From the IMG/VR virus record IMGVR_UViG_3300031696_000084, positions 1 to 20,535 of that record: DNA of 20,535 nt. One strand, written 5' to 3'. The notes beneath the pieces were generated by a model that ran no database searches, was not told where the DNA came from, and was given only the letters and a program-made list of their open reading frames with translations. Shown piece after piece: positions 1,258-13,222 of this stretch (its first letter is position 1; every line of letters begins with the position of its first letter). The position numbers were made by a program, and so were the translations under genes. The DNA is from a virus.

Positions 1258-1839
1258 TTATTTTTCCCATCTATAAAAAATATGATCATCAATCTTTGTT
1301 GTTCGTGTCTTTGTTGCAGCCCAAGCTGGCTTAACATAGTCCGCATGATAGTGTGTTGCACCATCAGTAATATCTACCACAAGCTGAGTTATAATAATAT
1401 CTGCAAGTTTTGTTATATTCATAAACGTATCAAAATCTTTTACAGTATCAGATAGACCATCGCAAAACCAACTAAATTGACAACGGTGTTTAATAGGGTA
1501 TTCTTTTGTTTTGTCGTTCCAAGATACTCTGGTCGGACCTTCCATTACAACTTCGCATATTGTATTGGGGTAACGATGGTCGTTCATACGGTTGATAGTT
1601 ACCAGTGCCACAGCCATTTGTCCAGCTATAGATTGGTTCCTTGCTTCATGATATATATTCATGGCAAGGCAGATCAGCTCGGGATCTGTTTTCTCTTCTA
1701 CAATTTCAGGCTCCACAACAGCCTCAACAACTGGTTCAAGAACTTCTATAGGAGGGCTAACCTTTTCCTCAGCAAGAATAAAACTTGCTGAGAATGCAAC
1801 TAACGAAATCGCAGGTATTACCAATAAGTATTTTTTCAT
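1258..1839 (-). CDS. Exported SleB-type cell wall hydrolase
   Basis: This is a likely endolysin of the SleB/Hydrolase_2 family, which cuts the glycan backbone of peptidoglycan. Residues 1-23 form a signal peptide or signal anchor (MKKYLLVIPA, hydrophobic core, then ILAEE), followed by a Pro/Val/Glu-rich linker (about 24-50) and the catalytic domain (about 52-193) with AMNIYHEARNQSIAGQMAVA (Glu65 as the expected catalytic acid), INRM, and CQFSWFCDG (120-128). Export by the host Sec system would make holin timing unnecessary or turn it into a signal-arrest-release mechanism. A GAGG ribosome site precedes ATG 1839, and its own promoter lies at 1870-1898. It is co-transcribed with 33 and 59. Confidence 0.85.
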   Translation of the reverse strand: MKKYLLVIPAISLVAFSASFILAEEKVSPPIEVLEPVVEAVVEPEIVEEKTDPELICLAMNIYHEARNQSIAGQMAVALVTINRMNDHRYPNTICEVVMEGPTRVSWNDKTKEYPIKHRCQFSWFCDGLSDTVKDFDTFMNITKLADIIITQLVVDITDGATHYHADYVKPAWAATKTRTTKIDDHIFYRWEK

Positions 1840-3372: not shown

Positions 3373-4959
3373 TTATCTCCTATACTGGGTTCCTATTAAT
3401 GCATCGTGATCACTGTCACTGCCACCAAATAAAAAATAAGATGTATAGTTGTTATCTGATATATTATTATCAGGTATTGATCTGTCACTAAAGAAATTAG
3501 GTGTATCTTTCAGTTGCGCTTGAGTATTGAAGAAACTCTTTGTGTTACCCAACACTTGCATAATAACAAGTGTTTTTATTTGATTGGTATCGGAGTATTT
3601 TTTGTTGCCCATCTTCTTAACTGCTTTATTTCCAGCCTTTGACATAGCCTTCTTCTTTACCGCTGCCTTCTGTTTGACAGTAGTCTTTTTTCCTTTTGAC
3701 TGAGTGCTCGAATTAGAACTTCTAGACGGAGCAGAACTTCCAGATTTTTTGGGCTCAACAATGGAAACTTTGGATTTTGCACTCTGTTTTTCTTGAGCAA
3801 CTTGTTGTTTGACTTCTGGTTCTGCTTCTGGTTCAACTTCAAGGGATGATGAGACTGATTCTGACTCCACAGATGTTCCTGTATCAGATGTACTTGCTGT
3901 ATCATTTGTTATCTCCGATATCTGTGCTATTTCAGCAACTTCTAAAGTAGTTTCTACTGAGGCAACAACTGTTGGTAATGGCACAACTACAACAGGTGCA
4001 GATATAGTTGTTTCTGCTACGCTTGTATCACTAACAATATCAATTGTTCCTGTTGCAATATCATCTGCTGTAGATGTGCTTATAACAGCGCATGTGTTTA
4101 GAACTTCACAGCTAATATTAGTAATGAGAGTATCGTATGTTAATGCTGTAGTAATTGTCTCTTCTATTTCGTTATAGGTAAAGGTAGTAAATACATCATT
4201 AAAGAAAGGACCAAATCTGTGATCGCCATTAAGAGCTGTATTTCCAAATATAGTTAACACCCCAGTATCAACAACACTCCCAGAATCTATTTCTAATGCA
4301 CCAGTTCTAATAGTTGGGGCAAATATTACAGTACTACCAATTTCAGTACTACCCAATGATGAATTATCTGAATCAAACAATTCTAATTTTATTGACCAAG
4401 TATCTGCTAGATTGTTTCCTGCTTGATCATTATCTACTTCTGCACCAAAAGAAAATGTCATTCCCTGTGCTTCTTCTGTCGAATTAATTGCGTCTGGAAA
4501 AAGATCATCCTGGGTATACGATTGGGTTATCGTGCCACCGTTGCCTGCCATAAATCCATTATTAGGACTAAATGCACAACCACCTGGGCATTGTGTAATA
4601 GACCAACCACTACTTGAACCACCGCCAAGTGAATTTGTAAAGGTAGGATTTGTTACAACATTAGGAGCCTCAGTTTGGGTAACACCAAATGTAGTTGTAG
4701 TTGTTGTAATTGGGGTTGTCTGGGTAGTAGTAGTTGAATTATCATCGTTAGTAACAGTAACACTAGTCGGATTACCACTTGATGTACCAGTAGTAGATGA
4801 CCCGTCTAAAATTGTATTTGAGTTTACCCCGCCTGCGTTAGAATATGAGGAAGGGAGGAATACCAAAGAGCATACCAACAATGGCAAGAGCAATCCCACC
4901 GCTGACGTATACACCAGTTTCTGGAGCTTCTGTAATTCGTTCTTCGTCGGAATAATCAT
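3373..4959 (-). CDS. Exported Ser/Thr-rich protein
   Basis: A protein of about 528 aa and unknown function. It has a Lys-containing n-region, a hydrophobic core (GLLLPLLVCSLVFLP) and a likely cleavage site after SYSNA, then a Thr/Ser-rich segment, a beta-rich globular part around residues 100-300 with WSITQCPGGC and a later C..C pair, a Val/Thr/Glu-rich linker, and a Lys/Ala-rich basic stretch (KKTTVKQKAAVKKKAMSKAG) before the C-terminus. Low-complexity linkers and a basic tail suggest an extended surface or fibre-like protein. The frame is open back to the amber stop of the upstream gene; I chose ATG 4957-4959, though no strong ribosome site is visible and ATG 4969-4971 is possible. Its 5' end overlaps the alternative frame of the preceding gene. 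Confidence 0.65.
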   Translation of the reverse strand: MIIPTKNELQKLQKLVYTSAVGLLLPLLVCSLVFLPSSYSNAGGVNSNTILDGSSTTGTSSGNPTSVTVTNDDNSTTTTQTTPITTTTTTFGVTQTEAPNVVTNPTFTNSLGGGSSSGWSITQCPGGCAFSPNNGFMAGNGGTITQSYTQDDLFPDAINSTEEAQGMTFSFGAEVDNDQAGNNLADTWSIKLELFDSDNSSLGSTEIGSTVIFAPTIRTGALEIDSGSVVDTGVLTIFGNTALNGDHRFGPFFNDVFTTFTYNEIEETITTALTYDTLITNISCEVLNTCAVISTSTADDIATGTIDIVSDTSVAETTISAPVVVVPLPTVVASVETTLEVAEIAQISEITNDTASTSDTGTSVESESVSSSLEVEPEAEPEVKQQVAQEKQSAKSKVSIVEPKKSGSSAPSRSSNSSTQSKGKKTTVKQKAAVKKKAMSKAGNKAVKKMGNKKYSDTNQIKTLVIMQVLGNTKSFFNTQAQLKDTPNFFSDRSIPDNNISDNNYTSYFLFGGSDSDHDALIGTQYRR

Positions 4960-4977
4960 CGGGCATATCATATTCAA

Positions 4978-6032: not shown

Positions 6033-6094
6033 AACCTCAGTCAAGCGTTTTCCTCATAGCTAGAACCTCAACCAAGCGTTTCAAGGGTAGCTAG
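6033..6094. repeat. Imperfect 31-bp tandem repeat
   Basis: Units 6033-6063 and 6064-6094 match at 23 of 31 positions, sharing AACCTCA at one end, CAAGCGTTT inside and TAGCTAG at the other. The second unit overlaps the stop codon of the Na/Pi-like gene. No long hairpin or T-run was found, so it is not an obvious terminator. Confidence 0.6.
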
Positions 6095-6528
6095 TATCTA
6101 GTCAGGAAACGAGCTATATGATGTACAAATGGAAGGAGTGATATAGACATGAACAAATTTGCTCCAGTATGTGCAAGTGCTATTCTCAACGTGTCCCCTT
6201 TAGGCATACCATCACTTACAAGGAAACCAGCAATCCATATTGTACCTGTCGTTCCAATATTTGCTCCAAGAACAGCTGCAATAGCAGCTGGAAGAGGAAC
6301 AGCCCCAGAAGCTACCAATGCAATAATAGCAGTAGTAGATAGGGAAGATGATTGCCAGAGTATCGTCATTACAATACCGCCAAGGAACATCCAATAGGGA
6401 TTGTGAATAAAATAACTCAAATGATCTAGGTTTCCCATCTGCTTCATTCCACCAGAAAACATCTTTAAACCAATATAGAATACTACTAGTCCAACTAGTG
6501 TTGTCAGTACAGGATTACCAAGCTCCAT
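6091..6528 (-). CDS. Single-repeat Na+/phosphate cotransporter-like protein
   Basis: This is a membrane protein of the Na/Pi cotransporter family (PF02690-like, NptA/SLC34 type), which moves phosphate inward with sodium. It has the family's WQSSSLSTTAIIALVASGAV signature (residues 58-77, QSSS 59-62), GANIGTT (88-94) and ALAHTGAN (117-124). Spans: about 6-27, 45-57, the re-entrant QSSS region to about 78, 79-104 and 117-137. Full transporters carry two inverted QSSS repeats; this 145-aa protein carries one, so it would have to dimerise or associate with a host protein. The start is ATG 6528 (AAGGTG at 6 nt) rather than ATG 6561, which has no ribosome site at normal distance. It lies directly downstream of the tmRNA. 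Confidence 0.8.
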   Translation of the reverse strand: MELGNPVLTTLVGLVVFYIGLKMFSGGMKQMGNLDHLSYFIHNPYWMFLGGIVMTILWQSSSLSTTAIIALVASGAVPLPAAIAAVLGANIGTTGTIWIAGFLVSDGMPKGDTLRIALAHTGANLFMSISLLPFVHHIARFLTRY

Positions 6529-6598
6529 CTTTTTCACCTTTTTTATTAATTTATTTTTCATTATTATTATTATCTATATCCTCACATTCAAATAGAGT

Positions 6599-7034
6599 GG
6601 TGGGTGATTCTGTTGCTAGGACACCCACCGAAACCCCGACAATCACAGCTTACGCTGCAAGAGCCATTGGTGATACATTATCGTTTGCATCTATAGTGTT
6701 TGGCGAATAACGCTGCCAGTCGGTAGTTCTACTCTCATCTATCCCTGCCTGTCGATCCTATTTCGCCCCCATCATAAACACACGATACGAATCTTCAAAC
6801 CCCTCTTCGGCCATGTAACTCTCATTATTATTCCACATTCTTTTAAAATAATAATCGTAACAATCTTCTATGGTTTGTTTTGATACGTTAAGATGTCCTT
6901 TAACAATATAAAATATTTTACATTTAAATTTAAGATTGCTAATACTTCTATTCCTTATTCGTGTGCTTATGGTGGAGGCGTGGGGTACTGCCCCCCAGTC
7001 CAGTACAGTAGTCAATTTGTATCAACGAACTACA
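6599..7034 (-). ncRNA. ssrA: Circularly permuted (two-piece) tmRNA
   Basis: tmRNA rescues stalled ribosomes by adding a degradation tag. The acceptor piece comes first and ends at an encoded CCA (6972-6970) after CGCCTCC and A; just before it TGGGG-GGCAGTA-CCCCA forms a T-arm. A 199-nt intervening segment (6969-6771) follows, then the coding piece starting GGGGGCG at 6770, continuing with the tmRNA-like GGATCGACAGG. GGGGGCG pairs with CGCCTCC over 7 bp, including G3-U70, the alanine-tRNA identity pair. The coding piece carries a TAGATGCAAACGAT resume region (E. coli: UAGUCGCAAACGAC), the tag and a P5-like hairpin with the stop codon in its loop (6643-6660). A stem 6599-6606/6622-6629 lies at the 3' end. 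Outer ends are approximate. The T-loop is non-canonical and I could not pair P2 by eye. Confidence 0.9.
6650..6688 (-). other. tmRNA tag reading frame
   Basis: The resume codon is GCA (6686-6688) and the tag is ANDNVSPMALAA, then TAA (6650-6652). The ANDN start resembles alphaproteobacterial tags (for example Caulobacter AANDNFAEEFAVAA), and the C-terminal ALAA is the ClpXP-type degron also found in the E. coli tag. The stop codon sits in a GUAA loop closed by UUGCAGC/GCUGUGA. Confidence 0.9.
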
Positions 7035-7040
7035 ATCTTA

Positions 7041-7069
7041 TTTATAGTCTATATTGACTGAAATGTCAA
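7041..7069 (-). promoter_or_regulatory. Promoter of the tmRNA gene
   Basis: Consensus TTGACA (7064-7069), a 17-nt spacer and TATAAA (7041-7046) on the minus strand place the start of transcription near 7034, just before the acceptor piece. The same place holds a TATAAATA octamer (7039-7046) resembling a T4 late promoter. The TGA stop of the upstream mini-gene lies in the -35. Confidence 0.75.
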
Positions 7070-7227
7070 CCCTTTTTTACAATTGCAATTACGCCCCATG
7101 CAATAGCTGCATAAGCAGCAATCTTAACAAAAGGAGCTCCAATTAAAATGACAACACCCATGGCGATAAGAGCACCACCGTGAAGTGAAGATGCTTCTTT
7201 GATTCGTTCTTTAATGTAATCGATCAT
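7066..7227 (-). CDS. Small membrane protein (53 aa)
   Basis: The function is not recognised. A charged amphipathic start (MIDYIKERIKEASSLHGG) is followed by two closely spaced hydrophobic stretches, ALIAMGVVILIGAPFVKI and AAYAAIAWGVIAIV, and a short KKG tail, so it is probably an inner-membrane protein of two spans or one long hairpin. Its size and layout are holin-like, but nothing proves that role. ATG 7225-7227 overlaps the stop of the upstream gene (ATGA), with AAGGA about 8 nt before. The stop codon overlaps the -35 of the tmRNA promoter. Confidence 0.7.
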   Translation of the reverse strand: MIDYIKERIKEASSLHGGALIAMGVVILIGAPFVKIAAYAAIAWGVIAIVKKG

Positions 7228-9924: not shown

Positions 9925-10392
9925 CTAATTTTTAGGGAACCGCTCTTGGAAAGGGAAATCATAGAACATAAGCTTAGTTTTGCTGGTTTCAAATAGATTC
10001 TTTTTCTTCTTACGAGACATCTTACCCTTCTGAGCTATACCCTTCTGAGCACGTTTCTGAACTCTCTGGAGCTGCTTTTGCTTCTCCTTGGTCCATGGGA
10101 AACGAATGAGTAGATCATCTTTACCATCATGGACTACCATTGTGATGTACTTCTCACCCCAAACATTACCAATAGAGTGATACTTGTATACGAACTCTTT
10201 AATGAATGGTTCATGCCTTGATCTGCCGATAAACTCTTTATTGACCATGAATGTTGTATAAACAACACCAAGAACGACACCAACCACGACATACTTAAAA
10301 AAGGGGCTTTTTACGACAAGAGGGATAAAGCATACAATCCCTGCAAATATCCATAACAGTAACAAATTTGTTGATGTGAATAACATATCCAT
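9925..10392 (-). CDS. Membrane protein with basic cytoplasmic tail
   Basis: A 155-aa protein with two N-terminal spans (about residues 8-28 and 33-50: LLLLWIFAGIVCFIPLVV and FKYVVVGVVLGVVYTTFMV), a soluble part, and a strongly basic segment around 100-130 (KEKQKQLQRVQKRAQKG, SRKKKKNLF). The function is not recognised. Its start overlaps the stop of the ExbD-like gene (TAATG), and it completes a three-gene membrane cassette with the MotA/ExbB-like gene, so it may be an accessory subunit. It is the last gene of the long rnh operon. Confidence 0.7.
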   Translation of the reverse strand: MDMLFTSTNLLLLWIFAGIVCFIPLVVKSPFFKYVVVGVVLGVVYTTFMVNKEFIGRSRHEPFIKEFVYKYHSIGNVWGEKYITMVVHDGKDDLLIRFPWTKEKQKQLQRVQKRAQKGIAQKGKMSRKKKKNLFETSKTKLMFYDFPFQERFPKN

Positions 10393-11021
10393 TAGGGTCG
10401 ATCCATATATGGTATTGATTGAAGAGCGACATCGTTAACAATCAGTTGATTACTTTCATGAAAGACAACATCACCATCATTAAGGACTTCAAATTCAAAC
10501 ACATGCTTCTCTTCACTAGGCTCAGTGAGTGTTACCTCTACAATCTTTAGAATCCTATACGGGTTTACCTGAAGTAATTCAATCTTAATGTTTTCAGGTG
10601 TTATATCAGGGTTACCAAGATTGTTATAAAAATGTGTTGTGACTACATATCTTCTCTGTGTCTTTGATCTGATGCTTATAACTTCTCTATTGACAGGGAT
10701 AAGTTCAACATTTTCCTTGGAGGTATACATATCGTTCCGATCACCAAGGTCATCTCTATCAAGTGTGAGCAAAGCAAAATCTTTTGCGCGGAAACCAACT
10801 ACGTTATCCTTATCGTCTTTAATCCATAGATCGATATCAGATTTACTATTATCATCCCATGACATAATAACAAGATACTCAGCCTTTGGGTCATGAGCTT
10901 CTTTTTTAGCGACTGGATTGATAAGAATGAACGCAAGCATGAATAGGAATGTAAAACCTACAAGAAGGTTAAACAATAAATCTACAAATCCAAACGTGCT
11001 TTTATATCGATTTGTGTCCAT
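10392..11021 (-). CDS. ExbD/MotB-like single-span protein
   Basis: This 209-aa protein has a short cytoplasmic N-terminus, one span (about residues 12-34, FVDLLFNLLVGFTFLFMLAF) and a large periplasmic domain. In ExbD, TolR and MotB a single N-terminal span with an essential Asp carries the proton path; here Asp14 lies at the start of the span, as expected for that role. The periplasmic part includes SDIDLWIKDDKDNVVGFRAK and LTLDRDDLGDRND, a beta-rich motif unlike the peptidoglycan-binding domain of MotB. It lies one base after the MotA/ExbB-like gene. The partner assignment is inferred from topology and adjacency. Confidence 0.65.
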   Translation of the reverse strand: MDTNRYKSTFGFVDLLFNLLVGFTFLFMLAFILINPVAKKEAHDPKAEYLVIMSWDDNSKSDIDLWIKDDKDNVVGFRAKDFALLTLDRDDLGDRNDMYTSKENVELIPVNREVISIRSKTQRRYVVTTHFYNNLGNPDITPENIKIELLQVNPYRILKIVEVTLTEPSEEKHVFEFEVLNDGDVVFHESNQLIVNDVALQSIPYMDRP

Positions 11022-11022
11022 G

Positions 11023-11472
11023 TCATGTATTTTCGTAAATAATCATTTGTATCTTAATGATAGTTGAACAAACAAGTCCCACCAATGTAGTAACAAGAGC
11101 AGTGCTCATACCAATAGCCATGTCAGATATGGCTTCCTGCACGTTTTTAATATCATTTACATCTAAACCAGTGAACGCTGTATTCAACATGATAAGGAAG
11201 CCAGCAACAGTACCAATCATACCAAGCGTGACCATTACCTCGCTGCCAAACCAAACATAGTTAGTTAGCCTATCAACGTGGTCCCAGTTAGTGCTTTTAA
11301 GACTGATGAACCCAATTGATAGAGAGGAGATTATAAACACACCAATAATAACAAAACTGATCTTCGTCATGTCAGCATTGTATAGAAACTCCCACCAACC
11401 ATATTGATCAATCATGAATGCAGAGAAAACAATAATTGCTGTCTGTATCCACCATTTCAAGGCTGCATTCAT
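11023..11472 (-). CDS. MotA/TolQ/ExbB-like proton channel protein
   Basis: The MotA/TolQ/ExbB family forms inner-membrane pentamers that couple proton flow to motion of a single-span partner. This 149-aa protein is short for the family. It has spans at about 9-27, 37-57, 77-97 and 115-143; the last two carry the family signature, LGMIGTVAGFLIML (83-96) and ISDMAIGMSTALVTTLVG (115-132). The large cytoplasmic loop between the first pairs is reduced. ATG 11470-11472 overlaps the previous stop, with AAGGA at 8 nt. The next gene encodes the ExbD-like partner. Confidence 0.82.
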   Translation of the reverse strand: MNAALKWWIQTAIIVFSAFMIDQYGWWEFLYNADMTKISFVIIGVFIISSLSIGFISLKSTNWDHVDRLTNYVWFGSEVMVTLGMIGTVAGFLIMLNTAFTGLDVNDIKNVQEAISDMAIGMSTALVTTLVGLVCSTIIKIQMIIYENT

Positions 11473-11796: not shown

Positions 11797-12468
11797 TTAT
11801 CCTATACGACTTGTAAAAAAATGATCGTCTTTGTATTTATAAGGGTCTCCCATAAATAATTGTGGCTCGTTATCTTGCACAGCAATTATAATTAACAATT
11901 GATCTGCCTTTACGCCATACATCTCTTCAAGCATAAACGAATAAGCAGAGCATTGGAGATAATAATCTTTAACCCAATCTCGTTTCTTTGGCTTCATTGA
12001 TGTCTTAAAATCAACGACAGTCAACTGACCTTTGATATCAGCAATACAATCTACCCGACCTGCCAATTTATATACATCACTATACAAAGCGCACTCTTGC
12101 ATATAGACTTTTGTGATTGCTTTATCGAGGATGGGTCTGATTGTGCGGAACATATCAACAGCGTTTGGCATTGCTTTACCAACATAATCTTCTTCATTGT
12201 TGAGATAGTTCTCACAGATGGTATGCATGGAAGTACCACGTGTAGATGCCAGGCGACTAATACGATTGGCTTCTTTTTCGCCAACTCGCTTTCGCCACGC
12301 CATTAATCCTTTTTTCTTTTCTGGATCTTTACCGAGAGCAGTGGTAACTGATTCATACAATTCACCCGAGGGAGTGACATATCGCCTTCCCTCAGGTGTT
12401 GTTGTAGCGTTTAAATCAACAGGTGTGAACCTGTCATCATGAACAAACTTAGTAGTAGATACCTTCAT
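11797..12468 (-). CDS. PD-(D/E)XK exonuclease
   Basis: A RecB/Cas4-like nuclease of 223 aa, probably acting on DNA ends in phage recombination or host DNA breakdown. Motifs in order: RGTSMH (78-83), the helix that positions DNA in RecB-type nucleases; AGRVDCIAD with Asp140; VVDFKTS (151-157), the D-X-K core; and QCSAY (172-176), the usual motif IV Gln/Tyr. The length is normal for a stand-alone phage member. The start overlaps phoH by 20 nt and has no strong ribosome site, so it is probably translated by coupling. Confidence 0.85.
   Translation of the reverse strand: MKVSTTKFVHDDRFTPVDLNATTTPEGRRYVTPSGELYESVTTALGKDPEKKKGLMAWRKRVGEKEANRISRLASTRGTSMHTICENYLNNEEDYVGKAMPNAVDMFRTIRPILDKAITKVYMQECALYSDVYKLAGRVDCIADIKGQLTVVDFKTSMKPKKRDWVKDYYLQCSAYSFMLEEMYGVKADQLLIIIAVQDNEPQLFMGDPYKYKDDHFFTSRIG
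11834..11841 (-). promoter_or_regulatory. Possible late promoter inside the nuclease gene
   Basis: TATAAATA on the minus strand, 42 nt before the ATG of the exported protein at 11792. It could give late expression of the exported-protein/MotA/ExbD-like block separately from the upstream replication genes. It is a chance-prone motif inside coding sequence. Confidence 0.25.
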
Positions 12469-13222
12469 TTAATTTAGCAATAATATACGATTTGACCAAT
12501 TCACTTCGTACAATATCTTCCTCCACAAAATTAACCGTTTTAAAACCTTTTATAGATTTAACAATTTTCATAAAATCAAGAATGCCTTGTCGGTCGCCTG
12601 ATTTTTCTAAATCACTCTGTCTAAAATCACCCGAGAATATAATACGAGTGTTCTCTCCAATACGTGTTACAATAGAATCTAATTCGTGAAATGTGAGGTT
12701 CTGGCATTCATCAACAAGAACAATACAATCACTGAGAGTAATTCCACGAATGAAGGATGTACTGATAAACTCCACCATGTTTTTATTCTTGAAAACATCG
12801 TATGCATCGCCACGCCCAAATAACTCTGAAAATATACTAATGTATGGTAGTTCATATGCTTTCTGCTTCTCTTTTTGACTCCCTGGAAGAAATCCCATGT
12901 CCCTGGTAGGGACTACTGATCGTACAATAACTAGCTTTTGTTTTTTTTCGTTCTGATTCAAAACTTCTTTCATAGCAAGATATGAAGAAATAAATGTCTT
13001 ACCTGTACCAGCCACACCTTGTAGTAGTAAGTGGTTGCCTTGGTCATATTCTCTAAATGTCTTAGATTGATTTGATGTTTTTGGTTGTATTAATCTTAAC
13101 GACATTCCTGCATTTGGTGTTTGATCAGTTCTTTTTTTCTCTTTTCTTTTTTGTTTTTTAGTCTTTTGATTATTAAATTTGACATAATCATCAACGAAAG
13201 CTAAGTTAGAGTTATTATACAT
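12449..13222 (-). CDS. phoH: PhoH-like ATPase
   Basis: A P-loop ATPase of the PhoH family, with a helicase-like core; widespread in marine phages, with an undefined role in RNA metabolism or phosphate stress. The 257-aa protein has a Lys-rich N-terminus (19-32), Walker A GVAGTGKT (69-76), VRSVVPTRDMGFLPG (100-114), Walker B IVLVDECQN (167-175) and SGDFRQ (197-202), all typical. The Walker A lysine and the DE pair are intact. It is part of the long rnh operon, with nuclease genes around it. Confidence 0.93.
   Translation of the reverse strand: MYNNSNLAFVDDYVKFNNQKTKKQKRKEKKRTDQTPNAGMSLRLIQPKTSNQSKTFREYDQGNHLLLQGVAGTGKTFISSYLAMKEVLNQNEKKQKLVIVRSVVPTRDMGFLPGSQKEKQKAYELPYISIFSELFGRGDAYDVFKNKNMVEFISTSFIRGITLSDCIVLVDECQNLTFHELDSIVTRIGENTRIIFSGDFRQSDLEKSGDRQGILDFMKIVKSIKGFKTVNFVEEDIVRSELVKSYIIAKLNEGIYY

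Follow-up and report, generated by a model that had tools for sequence, protein, structure and literature searches.

A half-size Na+/phosphate symporter family gene with two apparent translation starts in marine phage contigs

Results and Discussion

The half-size gene and its genomic neighborhood

The window analyzed here, a stretch of viral DNA of 20,535 nucleotides taken at its full length, encodes on its minus strand a half-size protein of the Na+/phosphate (Na/Pi) symporter family. A preliminary description had placed the gene at 6091-6528. That gene is real, and its frame is the same as that of 6091-6561, begun at an internal ATG. The single QSSS repeat noted in that description was also borne out, with one QSSS (residues 70-73) and one GANIGTT (residues 99-105) per protein. 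The parts of the gene and the adjoining RNA gene are as follows.

6091..6561, minus strand: half-size Na/Pi-family protein, long form, 156 amino acids, with a lysine-rich N-terminal tail (open reading frame with PF02690 match; tail codons constrained in relatives)
6091..6528, minus strand: predicted short form, 145 amino acids, from the internal ATG at codon 12 (start kept in 125 of 127 unique homologous genes)
6529..6561, minus strand: tail codons 1-11, MKNKLIKKVKK, six lysines; N-terminus predicted inside by the positive-inside rule
6535..6540, minus strand: AAGGTG, resembling a Shine-Dalgarno site and lying 6 nt before the internal ATG (synonymous-codon shuffles and control)
6436..6513, minus strand: TM1, residues 17-42 (AlphaFold model)
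6310..6399, minus strand: helical hairpin, residues 55-84, interrupted at QSSS (AlphaFold model)
6343..6354, minus strand: QSSS, residues 70-73 (intact in 127 of 127 unique homologous genes)
6217..6294, minus strand: TM2, residues 90-115 (AlphaFold model)
6247-6267, minus strand: GANIGTT, residues 99-105, within TM2 (motif intact in 127 of 127)
6100..6195, minus strand: TM3 and C-terminal helix, residues 123-154 (model; matches only the C-terminal repeat of bacterial relatives)
6599..7073, minus strand: permuted alphaproteobacterial-type tmRNA adjoining the half-size gene on its upstream side, a neighbor outside the system

The tmRNA was detected on the same strand as the half-size gene by Rfam model RF01849 (6599-7073, E = 5e-33) and by ARAGORN (6559-7066, tag ANDNVSPMALAA). 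Its type suggests an alphaproteobacterial host, and marine phages, Melnitz among them, are known to carry two-piece tmRNAs (PMC9004378). The preliminary description had drawn attention to the adjacency of the two genes. A permuted alphaproteobacterial-type tmRNA does adjoin the half-size gene, but ARAGORN detected a tmRNA in 0 of 53 related loci, indicating that this neighbor is particular to the window and that the link is incidental. Just upstream of the tmRNA, positions 7066-7227 (minus strand) encode a 53-amino-acid protein with hydrophobic segments and no PHROGs match, which could be a holin candidate.

Several other genes of the window and of related contigs were recorded. A three-gene membrane module lies at 9925-11472 (minus strand) and comprises a MotA/TolQ/ExbB-like gene (PF01618, E = 9e-6) and genes for a second membrane protein, with one N-terminal span, and for a small membrane protein; it is possibly a phage-encoded ion-driven stator-like system. 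In one related contig (L056, 3403-4986), homologues of the module immediately precede the half-size gene, and one module gene occurs in 8 loci. Positions 1258-1839 (minus strand) encode a secreted protein that by eye resembles SleB-type cell wall hydrolases, with a similar protein in contig L073 (8121-8618), and positions 3373-4977 (minus strand) encode a Thr/Ser-rich, low-complexity secreted protein of 534 amino acids with a TTG start and no family assignment. Periplasmic substrate-binding-like proteins, by eye BMP/PnrA-like and of amino-acid type, are encoded in contig L090 (13-1084), in 14 further loci, and in contig L082 (8726-9802). Curli-like genes lie near the half-size gene in contig L006 (410-2868); such genes have reportedly been found in Melnitz-type phages.

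Family membership and origin of the repeat

PF02690 (Na_Pi_cotrans) matches the protein once, over residues 28-118, with 61.5 bits against a cut-off of 29.1 bits (E = 1e-16). This single match above the curated cut-off supports the earlier assignment of a half-size protein to the Na/Pi family. The architecture of SLC34, NptA, and YjbB, with two inverted repeats in one chain, was not found, as there is only one PF02690 stretch per protein. Two NCBIfam models of Na/Pi symporters, in which two repeats are expected, scored the protein under their cut-offs (NF037997, 46.4 versus 50 bits; TIGR00704, 53.2 versus 210.1 bits), and no family in PHROGs matched it.

Both repeats of the solved zebrafish Slc34a2a were matched by sequence (E = 1e-16 overall), and the phage profile detects both repeats of bacterial two-repeat transporters. 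The bacterial C-terminal repeat aligns with the profile end to end (positions 8-144 of 145), whereas the N-terminal repeat aligns only over about positions 8-106. Over the shared part, the C-terminal repeat scored 57 bits versus 52 bits for the N-terminal repeat and was favored in 113 of 114 proteins. On these alignments, the phage protein is best described as a single repeat that stands alone and most resembles the C-terminal repeat of bacterial two-repeat proteins. All PF02690 frames in 201 Chloroflexota genomes are at least 355 amino acids long, save one 165-amino-acid copy on a phage-like contig. A phage-like Chloroflexi MAG contig was the sole match among genome contigs when a bacterial source of the half form was sought, and no relative of the half-size gene was found on plasmids.

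Conservation and distribution of the half-size gene

Of 553 candidate stretches found by scanning IMG/VR, 530 encode relatives; the best 80 were fetched, and a second scan with a divergent member added 80 more. The fetched relatives contain 127 unique homologous genes (126 viral-contig or window genes and one on the phage-like MAG contig L082), which fall into two families about 70% identical to each other. The half-size form noted in the preliminary description recurs in these relatives as 127 genes of the same length with the motifs: the body from codon 12 is 145 to 147 amino acids long in all of them, and QSSS and GAN[IVL]GTT are intact in 127 of 127. Pairwise dN/dS has a median of 0.10 and a maximum of 0.29 (1,725 pairs). 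As judged by these substitution ratios, the half-size gene is under strong purifying selection, and it is widespread in marine phage contigs. A length half of the usual might point to a truncated, decaying bacterial transporter gene, and the preliminary description had named a truncated pseudogene as the finding that would overturn its proposal. Decay is hardly credible, however, for a gene whose length and motifs are kept in 127 copies, in many genomic contexts and with a dN/dS of 0.10, and on these grounds we exclude the pseudogene.

Exactly one PF02690 match per contig was found in 35 of 35 longer contigs (25 of the first family and 10 of the second; up to 177 kb). No second half encoded elsewhere was found in these contigs, which are mostly partial. 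Among annotated isolate phages, none carrying the half-size form was found by tblastn against 50,697 phage records, where the matches were weak and fell in unannotated records, with partial query cover or less than 60% identity. The T4-type major capsid protein gp23 is encoded on 6 of 23 contigs tested. The neighbors of the half-size gene include T4-like replication genes, and no neighbor is constant.

Two apparent translation starts

A basic tail is encoded upstream of codon 12 in every member except one clade (L038, L040, and L077). The pN/pS of the tail codons is 0.18 in family 1 and 0.34 in family 2, compared to 1.0 in the DNA upstream of the tail, indicating that the tail is translated. 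An internal start codon is present in 125 of the 127 genes: 119 have ATG at codon 12, and 6 have their start at codon 11, 5 as TTG and 1 as ATG. The starts at codon 11 accompany Thr12 (the five TTG) or Ile12 (the one ATG). The remaining two genes, from one clade, lack the tail; their first codon is an ATG that lies four codons upstream. Plain conservation of Met12 was considered as evidence for an internal start and rejected; since other internal methionines are equally conserved, the evidence for this start is limited to the Shine-Dalgarno-like site and the moved start codons.

AAGGT, AAGGA, or AGGAGG is found 4 to 7 nt before the internal start in most genes, and 23 of the 127 have no recognizable Shine-Dalgarno motif at this place. 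The Shine-Dalgarno-like site exceeded synonymous shuffles in 45 of 52 representatives differing by >15%, although here, as in the other start-site counts and statistics, the sequences are related and their independence is overstated. The mean z was -1.4 for the Met12 site. Ten further Met positions within the gene gave -0.35 to +0.6, and a background of 471 internal Met codons of other genes on the same contigs gave +0.16. The lowest mean z in 5,000 draws of 52 background sites was -0.25. Lys8 is encoded by AAG in 45 of 50 cases, compared to 34 of 142 lysines in KKV contexts elsewhere. By these sequence statistics, the half-size gene has two constrained starts: the upstream one is followed by the translated basic tail, and the internal one has a Shine-Dalgarno-like site of its own. 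The two conserved starts are the new element of this analysis; the short product itself is predicted from the comparisons with shuffled codons and with the Met background.

Structure model and charge bias

An AlphaFold model built from a 63-sequence alignment (pLDDT 82, pTM 0.71) has, in order, a tail helix, TM1 (residues 17-42), a hairpin (55-84) broken at QSSS, TM2 (90-115), and TM3 (123-154). These three spans and the re-entrant hairpin are in line with the repeat units of NaPi-II transporters, which have two inverted repeats (PMC6325988). With this odd number of spans, a functional core of the known type would need two oppositely oriented copies. Foldseek gave no significant hit for this model (the best was 9x2m, E = 0.08) and listed no SLC34 chain, and VIA-align gave no Z above 6.1. 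A first, poor model (pLDDT 71) had given no fold match.

The Lys/Arg bias was calculated as inside (tail and loop 115-127) minus outside (39-57, 85-90, and 145 to the end). With inside and outside assigned by the positive-inside rule on the single-chain model, the long form has a bias of mostly +3 to +6, about +5 (N-in), and the predicted short form a small one of -1 to -3; in the tail-less clade L038/L077 the bias is 0. By its charges, the long form has the orientation of the bacterial C-terminal repeat. For comparison, small multidrug resistance (SMR) singletons with dual topology have biases centered on 0, with 3% beyond +/-2, and those of paired SMR transporters are centered on +4 and -4 (PMC9574504). 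The near-zero bias of EmrE-type proteins is thus absent from the long form and was found only in the tail-less clade. The preliminary description had envisaged a homodimer, but with about +5 against 0 for the SMR singletons, the long form is unlikely to make a simple homodimer of dual topology, and for this form that part of the proposal was not supported. The simplest way to obtain both orientations would probably be a pair of one long and one short form.

Possible relation to phosphate uptake

A role as an auxiliary gene for phosphate uptake, as the preliminary description had suggested, is plausible. Such a role for phage PF02690 genes is already known as a proposal: in the passages of PMC9038755 considered here, PF02690 genes are described in eight HMO-2011-type marine phage genomes and phosphate uptake is proposed. 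The window also encodes PhoH (PF02562, E = 4.5e-43) at 12449-13222. PhoH was matched in 3,422 of 50,697 phage records and, being so widespread in phages, says little about a phosphate theme. A phosphate module with PstS was considered and rejected, as a PF12849 search of 23 related contigs detected no PstS-type binding protein.

Proposed mechanism and alternative explanations

We propose, with a probability of roughly 0.4, that the long and short products of the two starts pair in antiparallel orientation into a Na+/phosphate transporter, likely serving phosphate uptake during infection. The long form would insert N-in, like the C-terminal repeat of bacterial relatives, and the short form, with its charge bias reversed, could insert N-out. 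Antiparallel pairing of the two would restore the inverted-repeat core that ordinary transporters carry within a single chain, and the two QSSS hairpins would lie opposite each other around the Na+/phosphate site. Such a pair would couple phosphate transport to Na+, most probably to take up phosphate while the host is infected; E. coli YjbB, of the same family, is annotated as an exporter, and transport might also run outward. That one phage gene with two starts supplies both half-transporter orientations of an antiparallel Na+/phosphate transporter is a tentative proposal, to which we give appreciably less than even odds.

The long form may instead be the only product and have a fixed orientation, joining or modifying a full-length host transporter (the preliminary description had also raised a modifier role) or forming a parallel oligomer, with the internal Shine-Dalgarno-like site serving as a pause that aids membrane targeting. 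Internal Shine-Dalgarno-like sites can act as translational pauses. The strong N-in bias of the long form and its charge orientation, the same as that of the bacterial C-terminal repeat, are consistent with this explanation. However, a pause needs no correctly spaced start codon, and genes with Thr or Ile at codon 12 retain a start all the same (TTG or ATG at codon 11); the tail-less clade L038/L040/L077 also has no fixed bias. We consider a fixed orientation unlikely. A single form with dual topology, making a plain antiparallel homodimer as in EmrE, is in our judgment distinctly improbable. It would account for the odd number of spans, the single gene copy, and the zero bias of the tail-less clade, but most relatives have a long-form bias of about +5, and SMR singletons rarely exceed +/-2.

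The layout of the starts also resembles that of lysis genes, and the Na/Pi repeat might have been recruited as a holin- or antiholin-like membrane protein. The hallmark of lambda S107/S105 is a pair of starts that enclose basic residues. This layout is present here as well, and the holins of lambda and phage 21 use it (PMC9671378). A GH108-like endolysin gene lies near the half-size gene in 9 loci, but this is only 9 of 162, and no other recurrent lysis gene was seen among the neighbor clusters listed for these 162 loci. A hole-forming protein would not need QSSS and GANIGTT, which are intact in 127 of 127 genes, and the half-size protein is larger and more conserved than holins. Recruitment for lysis accordingly seems a long shot.

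If the pairing of long and short forms is true, it would join dual topology and gene pairs as a third route to an inverted-repeat transporter. Half-size proteins that paired antiparallel are the supposed ancestors of inverted-repeat transporters, but few homodimers show inverted symmetry (PMC3962082). A Na/Pi half-unit that is natural and widespread would serve directly as an experimental model of the antiparallel-pairing step and of the way in which a cell produces one sequence in two orientations. In marine phages, it would further amount to a phage-encoded phosphate transporter of about 150 residues, relevant to phosphate-limited oceans.

Comparison with known systems

In the literature searched, mostly without subscription papers, we found no half-size Na/Pi protein in phages and no dual starts giving two transporter topologies. 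Among the closest known systems is the PF02690 family itself (bacterial YjbB/NptA type and animal SLC34), which shares the elements of the repeat fold, the QSSS hairpin, and GANIGTT. Its members have two repeats, whereas the phage protein has one and is without a PhoU-like domain. The PF02690 genes of HMO-2011-type phages belong to the same Pfam family and have the same proposed role in uptake, according to the passages of PMC9038755 considered, which state neither length nor repeat number nor start structure for them. Those phages are a different group; of the contigs studied here, the ones with gp23 (6 of 23) are T4-like.

SMR singletons and pairs are, like the phage unit, small proteins that must assemble in antiparallel orientation, and their pairs have opposite biases (PMC9574504). 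They differ in fold, and their opposite biases come from two genes, whereas here they would come from two starts. Lambda S107/S105 likewise has two starts split by basic residues that set the N-terminal topology, but this holin functions in lysis and is without transporter motifs. The SITL silicon transporters of coccolithophores offer a half-size, single-repeat relative that transports, probably as a dimer (PMC10098502, in the part considered). They belong to an unrelated family, and the passages of that source describe no dual start.
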